Below, piece by piece: positions 6,221-11,533 of a DNA stretch of 47,908 nt. The DNA comes from Gemmatimonadota bacterium (GTDB taxonomy: Bacteria; Gemmatimonadota; Gemmatimonadetes; Longimicrobiales; Gaopeijiaceae). The stretch covers positions 1-47,908 of the forward strand of contig JAPPGI010000135.1 of assembly GCA_028874985.1 (NCBI GenBank), read 5' to 3'. The translations under genes were made by a program, and so were the position numbers. Each line of letters opens with the position of its first letter. Position 1 is the stretch's first letter. The notes beneath the pieces are model-generated. The model saw only the letters and a program-made list of their open reading frames with translations. It was not told the DNA's origin and ran no database searches.

Positions 6221-7981
6221 ATGACGAGCCCGAGGACTATGATGAAGCGAAGGATAGGGGTGGTGGGCGCCGGACCGGCCTTCGCACTCCTCCTGGCTGC
6301 GGACGCAACGATGATTACCGTGGGGCCCGTGCGAGCGATCGGGAACGGGCACCTCTCCGCCCAAGTCGTAAGTTCGGACGAAAGGGATTTCCTCGCGGCG
6401 AGGTCGCAGATCAACCGGACGAACTGGGTGGACGCGGCCCGGCTGTTCCGAAACTACCGCGCGAGATGGCCGGCGGGAAAATACGTCAGCGATTCCTTCT
6501 ACTGGGAAGCGTTCGCCCGCCACCGGCAGGGCCAGTTGGAGCAGGCCGTGCTGCTTCTGGAAAACATGCTGGAGAATGTCCGGGACAGCGTGCCGGGCAA
6601 CCAGTTGAATGCCCGCCGCGTCAACGATGCGCGCCAGCTGCGCCTCCGGATCCTCGGAGAGATGGCGGAGAAGGGCGATCCGCGTGCGGCCCAGGAAGTG
6701 CTGCGAGAGTCGGACGCGGCTCTCGGAGCGGCGTGGGACAGTGCCGCGAAGGCCGTGTCAGTGGCGTGGGACAGCCTGGCGGTGGCCATGTCGACTGCGT
6801 GGGACAGCCTTGCGGAAGTGATGGTTCCGGCCTTAGACACGCTCGCCGCAACGATGGTTCCCGCCCTCGACTCGCTTGCGGATGCGATGTCCCGGGAGCT
6901 TCCCGCGCTGGTTGACAGTGTAACGGCGACGATCGATGCAGCGGACATGTCGCGGTTCAGAAGGGCATTGACGCGGCTGGAAGCGGATCTCGGGGGTTTT
7001 CGGTTGTTGAAGTTGCGCGATAGCCGGCTCCCGGAGCACTGCGAGGACGAGTCCGTGCAGCAGGAGGCGCTGACGTCGGTTCTGCGTCTCGTCGAGACGG
7101 ACCGGATCCCGATCCTGCGCGGTGTGATCGACCGCGACGACGAGTGCTCCGTCAACCTGCGCGTATTCGCCGTCGGGCGACTCGCCCGCGAAGGCACCCC
7201 GGAAGCGGAGCGGGAGCTGATCAGCGTCGCCGCCACCCATCCGGACCCGGAGGCCCGCCGCGCCGCGGTGTCGGGCCTCAGGCGGTTCGACACGCCGACC
7301 GCTCTCGCCGCGCTGGTCAACGTGCTCGCGCGCTCGAACGACGCGGAAATGCAGGAAGTCGCGATTCATGGACTCCGGCGCAGCGAAAGCGCGGGGGCCC
7401 GCGACGCGCTCGCGGCCTTCGCCGCGGACGCTGCGAAACCGGAGGGCCTGCGCGAGGACGCCATAGTGGCGCTGGGCCGGCGCGACGACGTGGAAGCCGG
7501 GGTACTGATCGGGATCTACGCCGCGTTGGAGACCCCGAAGCTCAAGACCGCCGTGATAGATCGGCTGCGCGAGATCCGGAGCAGGGAGGCGGAAACCTGG
7601 CTGTTCGGCGTGGCCTTCGACGCGAACGAGACCGACCGCATCCGCTCGAGGGCACTCGACGCCTGGGCAAGAAGCCCGGCGCTGGAACTCTCGAGCCTGG
7701 TCCAGGCCTACAATCGGTTCGGGGAGCCCGACCGTCGCGAACGGATCTTCTACGCCCTCTACCGCAAGGCGGGTCGGTCGAAGGGGGAGGCCAAGTCCGA
7801 GGTCGTGCGGAAGATGGTCGAACTCGCCCGCCTGGAACCGGATCCCGAAGTGCGTGAACGCGCGGTCGCCTGGCTGGGCCGCACCGGATCCCCGGAAGCG
7901 GTCGAATTCCTTCTCGAACTGCTGCGCGGGCCGCAACGGGACACCATACCGAAGGCCGGGCGGCCGGGTTCGCGCAAGTGA
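6221..7981 (+). CDS. HEAT-repeat exported protein with 11-residue repeats
   Basis: The 586-residue protein starts with a signal-like segment (ATG 6221; ATG 6239 is an alternative). Residues 55-165 look like TPR/YbgF helices (WVDAARLFRNYRARWPAGKY, EQAVLLLENMLENV). Residues about 167-233 hold six tandem 11-residue units built on AWDSLA. From about 270 to the end are HEAT-type helical repeats (TPEAERELISVAATHPDPEA, DAEMQEVAIHGLRRSES, DAIVALGRRDDVEAG, EVRERAVAWLGRTGSPEAVE). HEAT solenoids bind proteins. The position after the sigma/anti-sigma pair (57-base gap) suggests a role in the same envelope signalling unit, which is inference. Confidence 0.85.
   Translation: MTSPRTMMKRRIGVVGAGPAFALLLAADATMITVGPVRAIGNGHLSAQVVSSDERDFLAARSQINRTNWVDAARLFRNYRARWPAGKYVSDSFYWEAFARHRQGQLEQAVLLLENMLENVRDSVPGNQLNARRVNDARQLRLRILGEMAEKGDPRAAQEVLRESDAALGAAWDSAAKAVSVAWDSLAVAMSTAWDSLAEVMVPALDTLAATMVPALDSLADAMSRELPALVDSVTATIDAADMSRFRRALTRLEADLGGFRLLKLRDSRLPEHCEDESVQQEALTSVLRLVETDRIPILRGVIDRDDECSVNLRVFAVGRLAREGTPEAERELISVAATHPDPEARRAAVSGLRRFDTPTALAALVNVLARSNDAEMQEVAIHGLRRSESAGARDALAAFAADAAKPEGLREDAIVALGRRDDVEAGVLIGIYAALETPKLKTAVIDRLREIRSREAETWLFGVAFDANETDRIRSRALDAWARSPALELSSLVQAYNRFGEPDRRERIFYALYRKAGRSKGEAKSEVVRKMVELARLEPDPEVRERAVAWLGRTGSPEAVEFLLELLRGPQRDTIPKAGRPGSRK
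6719..6919 (+). repeat. Tandem 33-bp (11-residue) repeats inside the HEAT protein gene
   Basis: Encodes successive units ALGAAWDSAAK, AVSVAWDSLAV, AMSTAWDSLAE, VMVPALDTLAA, TMVPALDSLAD and AMSRELPALVD. The period of 11 residues with small or hydrophobic residues at fixed places matches hendecad helices seen in coiled coils and lipid-binding amphipathic helices. The DNA copies share GCGTGGGACAG in the first three units and diverge after, so the array is degenerate. Confidence 0.85.
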
Positions 7982-9250: not shown

Positions 9251-9715
9251 CTACCCCCCGGTCACGTCCGCCGACCAGGTCACCTCGACCGCCCCCTCGA
9301 GACTGCGTGCCGTCGGACACTTCGCCACATGGGTGGACAGCGCCCGGTCGACCTTGTCGCGCGGGGCGCCTTCGGGGAGCCGGATCGTGTAGTGGGCGTG
9401 AATCTTCGTGAGCACCACAACCCGGTCCACGACTTCGTTCGTCCCCTCCGCCTCCACGCTGATCGCGTCGTTCGCCATCGGGATCCCGCGCACCTCCAGT
9501 GCGCCGTTGAGGGTCCCGAGCAGTCAGCCGGCGGCCGCCGCGACCAGGTAGTCGACGGGGAGCGGCCGGTCGGGTTCCGCGTCGAGACGGAAATGGGACT
9601 TGATGGGACCGTGGACGCCGAAGTCGATCTCGGTGCCGTCCTCCAGGGTGGCGCGGCGGTGGATGCCGTCGACCTTGGCGACGCTGGCGCGGGCGGTGTA
9701 GAAGGGTTGGCTCAT
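9251..9715 (-). CDS. OsmC-family protein with in-frame UGA at the catalytic Cys (putative selenoprotein)
   Basis: OsmC/Ohr-family proteins reduce peroxides with two cysteines. The frame from ATG 9715 reads MSQPFYTARASVAKVDGIHR, DFGVHGPIKSHFRLDAEPDR and PVDYLVAAAAG, then TGA (9526-9524, codon 64), then LLGTLNGALEVRGIPMANDA through STHVAKCPTARSLEGAVEVT to TAG at 9251. The TGA falls where family members have the first catalytic Cys (C before L-G-T-L); the second, in KCPTARSL, is Cys133. The frame is unchanged across the TGA, there is no other stop, and both halves keep family sequence. A stem-loop fitting the bacterial SECIS rules follows the TGA. I therefore read it as selenocysteine, 154 residues. 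A plain nonsense mutation remains possible. The frame is also open upstream to 9907, but that part is low-complexity. Confidence 0.75.
9479..9518 (-). promoter_or_regulatory. Candidate bacterial SECIS element
   Basis: Minus-strand RNA just after the UGA folds as follows: a 6-bp perfect upper stem GCGCAC/GTGCGC (9504-9499 with 9493-9488) with the 5-base loop UGGAG; CCC/GGG (9513-9511 with 9487-9485); and CGGGA/UCCCG (9518-9514 with 9483-9479). The apical loop starts 26 bases after the UGA and has G at its second position. This agrees with the published bacterial SECIS consensus of a G in the first two loop bases and a loop 16-37 bases from the UGA. Confidence 0.7.
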
Positions 9716-9913
9716 GAGGGTCTCGTCTCGATGGAGGGTGCCGTGGAATTCGAAGGAGTGGTCCTCCGAAGCTATCACCCCGCCCCGCGATCCGCCCGTA
9801 CCGGCGCCTCCGGCCGTACCGGCGTCGCGGGTCGGAATCCGGCGTGCCCCCGGTGTCCCGGCTTCCGGCGCTCCCGTGGATAAATCCGCGAACCCTATTA
9901 CCTTCATTCGGCC

Positions 9914-10585
9914 ATGGACCTACGACAGATGTTTATGAGTCGGTGGAAATCCGAAGTACCGGGCCCGCACGAGGCGTTGCCGGGAAGAGGTGAGCCGTTG
10001 CGCGTGCCCGGGCCGCACCATGTCAGCGGGAACCGTATCCGGCCTCCCTTCCCGGAGGGCGTCCAGCGGGCCTACTTCGCCATGGGCTGCTTCTGGGGTG
10101 CGGAGCGCCTGTTCTGGGAGCTTTCCGGCGTGTACTCGACCGCGGTCGGCTACCAGGGCGGCCGGACGCCGAACCCGACCTACCGGGAAGTCTGCACGGG
10201 CCGCACCGGCCACGCCGAGGCCGTCCTGGTCGTCCACGATCCCGACCTGGTGGACTACCGGACGCTGCTGGCCGCCTTCTGGGAGGGGCACGACCCGACC
10301 CAGGGAATGCGGCAGGGTGCCGATGTGGGCACGCAGTACCGGTCCGCCGTCTACACGGTGGGGGACCGGCAACGGCGCCTGGCCGAGGAGTCCCGCGACC
10401 GGTACCAGGCCGAACTCGACGAGGCGGGGTTCGGTGCCATCACCACGGGGATCGCACCCGCGGCCGAGTTCTACTACGCCGAGGAGTACCACCAGCAGTA
10501 CCTGGCCAGGAACCCGGGCGGCTACTGCGGGTTGGGGGGGACGGGCGTGTCCTGCCCGAGCGGCGTCATGCCCGCGACCGACTAG
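9914..10585 (+). CDS. msrA: Peptide methionine sulfoxide reductase MsrA
   Basis: Reduces the S-epimer of methionine sulfoxide in proteins. The 223-residue product has the catalytic [14 protein letters not shown] (Cys59), [52 protein letters not shown] and the C-terminal resolving region [16 protein letters not shown]. It resembles the E. coli MsrA type with an N-terminal extension ([15 protein letters not shown]) rather than the short form. The start is ATG 9914; in-frame ATGs at 9929 and 9935 are equally possible, and none has a clear ribosome site. It diverges from the OsmC-family gene, which supports a shared oxidative-repair role. A palindromic repeat follows right after its stop. Confidence 0.95.
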
Positions 10586-10669: not shown

Positions 10670-11533
10670 ATGGCCCCGAGCAACCGCCCGCGCAACGGCC
10701 CGCCCTGGCGAGGGCAGCTCTACGACATCCTGTTCGAGACGGACGTCCATGTCGGGGCCAGGGTCTTCGACATCCTGCTGATCCTGATCATCCTCGCCAG
10801 CGTCCTGGTTGTCATGCTCGATTCCGTGGAGTCGATCGAGGCGAGGCACGGTTTCGCTCTGCACATCCTGGAATGGGTATTCACAGTCCTGTTCACCATC
10901 GAGTATGCGGCGCGAATGGCTTCGGTCCAGTCCAAGCGGCGCTACGCGCTCAGCTTCTTCGGCATCATCGACCTGCTTTCGATCATCCCGACGTACCTGA
11001 GCCTGATCCTCTACGATACCCGCTTCCTGGTGATCATCAGGGTGCTGAGGGTGCTGCGCGTCTTCAGGGTCCTCAAGCTGGTGCGCTTCCTGGGCGAAGC
11101 ACGGGTCCTGGGCCGGGCGCTGGCGGCCAGCCGCTTCCGGATCATCGTCTTCCTGATCACGGTGGTGACGATGGTCGTGATCCTGGGTTCCTTCATGTAC
11201 CTGATCGAGGGACCGGCCGCGGGCTTCACGTCGATTCCGGTAGCCGTATACTGGGCGGTCGTGACCCTCACCACGGTCGGCTTCGGCGACATCACGCCGA
11301 TCACGGCGGTGGGGCAGTTCCTGGCCGCGATTATCATGCTCCTGGGGTACGGCCTGATCGCCGTACCGACCGGAATCGTGAGCGTCGAATTGGCCCACGC
11401 CGCCCACGCGGCGCGCGGTCCGGCGGGGGTTAGGGACCGGGTATGTTCGGGATGCCGCAGTGGCGGTCACGACGAGGACGCGCGATTCTGCAAGACCTGC
11501 GGCGGCACCGTCGTTGATGTGGGAGGCGAGTGA
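10670..11533 (+). CDS. Voltage-gated potassium channel with C-terminal zinc ribbon
   Basis: A six-helix cation channel of 287 residues. S1 is LLILIILASVLVVML and S2 is ILEWVFTVLFTIEYAARM. The voltage sensor S4 (RVLRVLRVFRVLKLVRF, about 124-140) has Arg every third position. The selectivity filter TLTTVGFGDITP (199-210) is a standard K+ filter, followed by the S6 helix. After S6 come about 20 residues and then CSGC...CKTC (Cys259, 262, 274, 277), a zinc-ribbon in place of the RCK or cNMP domain usually found in such channels. The start is ATG 10670, just after the palindromic repeat. It is followed after 3 bases by the LiaF-like gene. Confidence 0.93.
   Translation: MAPSNRPRNGPPWRGQLYDILFETDVHVGARVFDILLILIILASVLVVMLDSVESIEARHGFALHILEWVFTVLFTIEYAARMASVQSKRRYALSFFGIIDLLSIIPTYLSLILYDTRFLVIIRVLRVLRVFRVLKLVRFLGEARVLGRALAASRFRIIVFLITVVTMVVILGSFMYLIEGPAAGFTSIPVAVYWAVVTLTTVGFGDITPITAVGQFLAAIIMLLGYGLIAVPTGIVSVELAHAAHAARGPAGVRDRVCSGCRSGGHDEDARFCKTCGGTVVDVGGE

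Follow-up and report, generated by a model that had tools for sequence, protein, structure and literature searches.

The question raised by this locus is whether the single TGA inside an otherwise open OsmC-like frame, found in the 47,908-nucleotide stretch of Gemmatimonadota DNA that was analyzed here and that we refer to as the window, ends a protein or is read as selenocysteine (Sec). Based on the frame itself, the conservation of the TGA, a covarying hairpin just beyond it, a complete Sec machinery and the predicted fold, we propose that the gene very probably encodes a Sec-containing member of the OsmC superfamily, with UGA 64 as the putative Sec codon. This is the reading put forward in the initial annotation of the DNA, and the sequence checks suggested there (the residue in homologues at codon 64, and a search for selA, selB, selC and selD) all came out in its favor, as did the finding of a conserved SECIS-like hairpin 3' of the TGA. 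The features concerned are collected in Table 1. The OsmC frame had been described as unbroken on both sides of the lone TGA, and this is borne out both by the frame and by the match of the read-through protein to PF02566 (56.3 bits against a cut-off of 27.5, residues 49–147, with the TGA read as a residue). The assigned start is backed by an MSxPFY N-terminus that is conserved among the A1 relatives. Mechanical ORF calling reproduces the predicted break of the gene into pieces of 127 (9907..9524) and 80 (9493..9251) residues, and automated annotation pipelines would probably overlook the gene or break it up. In an alignment with the OsmC of T. thermophilus (1ukk) the TGA falls at the first Cys (AGCF) and CPTARSL at the second, in agreement with the earlier view that the second Cys (KCPTARSL) is intact. 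The claim that the TGA occupies the first catalytic Cys holds for the position, while the word catalytic refers to a peroxidase role that the fold suggests.

Table 1. Features of the OsmC-like gene and its putative SECIS element (window coordinates).
Feature	Position	Strand	Description
Sec-OsmC gene (putative)	9251..9715	minus	154 codons, ATG 9715 to TAG 9251; single in-frame TGA, otherwise open
TGA codon 64, putative Sec	9524..9526	minus	Aligns with Cys of non-TGA homologues; TGA kept across loci
TGT codon 133, resolving-type Cys (CPTA)	9317..9319	minus	Invariant in A1 and A3; aligns with second Cys of 1ukk
Hairpin 5' arm, GCGCAC	9499..9504	minus	nt 23–28 from T of TGA
Apical loop, UGGAG	9494..9498	minus	UGG in all sequences examined; UGGA in 95/95 of subfamily A
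Hairpin 3' arm, GUGCGC	9488..9493	minus	nt 34–39 from T of TGA

The genome from which the window comes (4.25 Mb, 95% complete) contains all four of the genes that the initial annotation had named, with selA, selB and selD matching at 497, 307 and 380 bits, respectively, and the tRNA-Sec gene at 69.9 bits against a cut-off of 47. The selD gene (L017, G000:C89:20853-21779) has an in-frame TGA of its own immediately before ACKL, the usual Sec position of SelD, and SelD itself is thus probably a selenoprotein. ARAGORN did not call the tRNA-Sec gene in this genome because the edge of the contig removes 2 nt of it, and full-length tRNA-SeC (tca) genes are called in genomes of the same genus. The tRNA-Sec gene lies at the very start of its contig (L001, G000:C47:1-91), as it does in G298 and G152, and is present as two copies in G299; assemblies may be interrupted here by a repeat. 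Across the phylum sample, selA is found in 88 of the 90 genomes with a TGA-containing OsmC gene vs 133 of the 208 others (Fisher p 1e-11). The two exceptions, G146 and G211, gave no selA match, and both are assemblies in hundreds of contigs.

The TGA is kept wherever the gene is found. An OsmC-like match is present in 128 of 298 genomes of the phylum and every strong match holds the TGA. The initial annotation had argued that decay was unlikely to strike exactly this residue, and indeed TGA stands at the codon-64 site in 70/70 loci of a first extraction and in 80/80 kept loci of a second collection scan, the latter made with peptide patterns that exclude codon 64 and hence without selection for TGA. 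It should be noted that the two sets (150 loci) overlap in genomes and comprise two paralogous subfamilies; pooling leaves 95 distinct sequences of subfamily A, to which the window gene belongs (53–94% identity), and 15 of subfamily B, which is about 33–45% identical and has TGA at the same site. The loci are mostly from Gemmatimonadota MAGs, plus five labeled Acidobacteria, and about a hundred related genomes share the same arrangement. Homologues in the phylum that lack the stop have Cys at the column aligned with codon 64, no Cys orthologue of the window subfamily was seen among the 298 genomes, and in no relative examined is the TGA replaced by TAA or TAG or the frame shifted there, changes of a kind that had been named as evidence against Sec. 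The genome of the window has subfamily A only, with no subfamily-B member found, together with a distant OsmC-superfamily protein that has Cys. The subfamily-B paralogue (L077-L091) occurs in many Gemmatimonadota. A search of a plasmid collection gave no homologue. One genome has, ~2.3 kb beyond the 3' end of its complete Sec-OsmC gene, a fragment of 30 residues that matches the C-terminus of the protein at 70% identity (L193, G085:C40:39987-40076), perhaps the remnant of a duplication.

How the coding sequence evolves on the two sides of the TGA bears on what the codon does. The pN/pS ratio is 0.23 before it and 0.25 after it, so that purifying selection is equal on both sides. The UGA could be mainly a regulated stop, with a 63-residue protein as the relevant product and read-through as a side product. 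Bacterial Sec insertion is generally inefficient, and some of the 63-residue product is therefore to be expected, but this product would miss most of the OsmC fold, the part after the TGA is under the same selection as the part before, and the alignment with the active-site Cys and the co-occurrence with selA would be left unexplained; we regard a regulated stop as very unlikely. Far less probable still is the view that the gene is dying and the TGA a mutation of its decay, or else an error of sequencing; this is rejected on the conservation of the TGA and the equal pN/pS. A lone stop in an otherwise intact frame could be a young lesion, but the same TGA is present at every locus studied, even where identity falls to about 53%, and is shared with the paralogous subfamily. 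Reassignment of UGA in this organism (e.g. to Trp or Gly) with no involvement of selenium would account for the clear read-through of the gene but is rejected as having next to no probability, because TGA terminates other genes of the same genome, namely those at 10670-11533 (an ion channel, PF00520) and 6221-7981 of the window, and is the terminal stop of several orthologues, all as in the standard code, while homologues have Cys at the site and Sec genes are present.

The proposed insertion of Sec at UGA 64 calls attention to the mRNA that follows the codon. The six stem pairs of the hairpin in Table 1 form in all 95 distinct subfamily-A sequences, and the same hairpin is absent from three sequences of subfamily B. 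In a set of 40 diverse sequences from both subfamilies, pairing is preserved in 96.3% of cells and two of the pairs show compensatory changes; the covariation score was reached in none of 500 shuffles and exceeds every slid control. RNAalifold arrives at the same hairpin unaided. In the replacement of A27-U35 by G27-C35, a synonymous GCA to GCG change at codon 72 is matched by Val75 to Ala (GTG to GCG), which restores the pair. The codons under the hairpin in subfamily A are GGC at codon 71 (94/95), GCA at codon 72 (83/95) and CTG at codon 73 (95/95), where GCA makes up only about 7% of the Ala codons further downstream. We interpret these synonymous codons as being frozen to preserve the hairpin. 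A covariance model of the hairpin has this site as its sole match in the genome, at 76.7 bits against 17.1 for the runner-up. The minimum free energy fold of the window segment surpasses shuffled sequences by a moderate margin only (z −2.39). A bacterial SECIS element has been defined as a stem-loop immediately downstream of the UGA with a G in a small apical loop (PMC1088965), and this is what is found here. Judged from sequence and covariation, the hairpin fits such an element and would be a binding site for SelB.

The fold of the protein is predicted with high confidence by an AlphaFold model built from an alignment of own-locus sequences (pLDDT 96.3), for which the best PDB matches in Foldseek are Ohr and OsmC (probability 1.00). 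Residue 64 is located in the central helix (53–75) of the model and Cys133 lies between two helices. We now put forward a hypothetical mechanism. SelB would bind the mRNA hairpin starting 19 nt after the UGA and deliver Sec-tRNA(Sec), such that UGA 64 is decoded as Sec and elongation proceeds as far as the TAG. The resulting Sec64 would sit halfway along the long central helix, where OsmC and Ohr have their peroxidatic Cys, with Cys133 as its resolving partner. In the likely chemistry, a hydroperoxide is reduced with formation of Sec-OH, which would give an Se-S bridge to Cys133 that is then reduced by a thiol, perhaps a lipoyl group. In XfOhr, the peroxidatic Cys61 is preceded, at a distance of 10 residues, by the catalytic Glu51 (PMC5962072). 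This Glu is absent here, where position −10 is Val54 and position −9 is Asp55, neither of which varies in A1, and peroxidase activity is therefore not assured. Hydroperoxide reduction by Sec64 with Cys133 as the resolving residue is our best guess from the modeled structure. We consider it less probable that these proteins from Gemmatimonadota and some Acidobacteria-labeled genomes form a Sec-only OsmC subfamily, with no Cys version and without the Ohr-type Glu, in which Sec serves some chemistry beyond the simple reduction of organic hydroperoxides.

The gene itself stands alone. It is adjoined by a divergent msrA gene (PF01625; window 9914-10585, plus strand), and most loci from the genus have an msrA on that side, no more than about 2.4 kb away, which is not the case in more distant genomes; a shared role of the two in oxidative stress is possible. 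A search for a conserved operon partner showed that neighbors differ outside the genus and gave no functional link. The window also contains a gene for a bacilliredoxin-type protein (PF06491; 12817-13494, minus strand) with its CGC motif intact and, where the contig ends (47313-47908, plus strand), five clustered tRNA genes.

Selenoproteins of the Sec-OsmC type would thus appear to be widespread in uncultured Gemmatimonadota, and they could be overlooked by discovery methods that require a close Cys homologue. Their SECIS alignment is unusually clean. In the open literature searched we found no description of the selenoproteome of the phylum, no paper that is clearly about Gemmatimonadota selenoproteins and none that names the NCBIfam family NF041052.

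The initial annotation had referred to OsmC-like selenoproteins from metagenomic surveys, and such a protein, with the motif UxxT, was indeed found in the Sargasso Sea metagenome in 2005 (PMC1088965) and again in the GOS metagenome (PMC2398784), and a review from 2026 includes a single OsmC-like entry, which has UxxT (PMC13188914). The Sargasso/GOS protein resembles the one proposed here in belonging to the OsmC superfamily, in having Sec at the redox Cys and in a SECIS-like hairpin just 3' of the UGA. It differs in its motif, which here is UxxGT (ULLGT or UMLGT in subfamily A; e.g. ULTGT in B), and in that its discovery needed Cys homologues, whereas no Cys orthologue was seen in our sample of the phylum (298 genomes). 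NF041052 (OsmC_like_Se) likewise covers OsmC-related proteins that may have Sec at the site, but its cut-off of 95 bits is not reached by the window protein (30.2) or by four subfamily-B proteins (at most 24.2), and hence the model at its cut-off misses these Gemmatimonadota proteins. The OsmC and Ohr peroxidases (1ukk, 1nye, 1qwi and the Ohr structures) have the same fold and the same two redox positions, but with a peroxidatic Cys where we infer Sec and, in Ohr, with the catalytic Glu where Val is found here. The window protein is far below the cut-off for OsmC proper (TIGR03562; 19.6 vs 85.8 bits), and Ohr (TIGR03561) is not among its matches, a subfamily-A relative scoring 13.8 vs a cut-off of 88.85. 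It belongs to PF02566, with a score above the gathering cut-off and a predicted OsmC fold. Hence, the Sec-OsmC kind is already known, from the Sargasso and GOS reports, the review and NF041052, and the window subfamily appears to be a widespread form of it that is undescribed in the sources searched.
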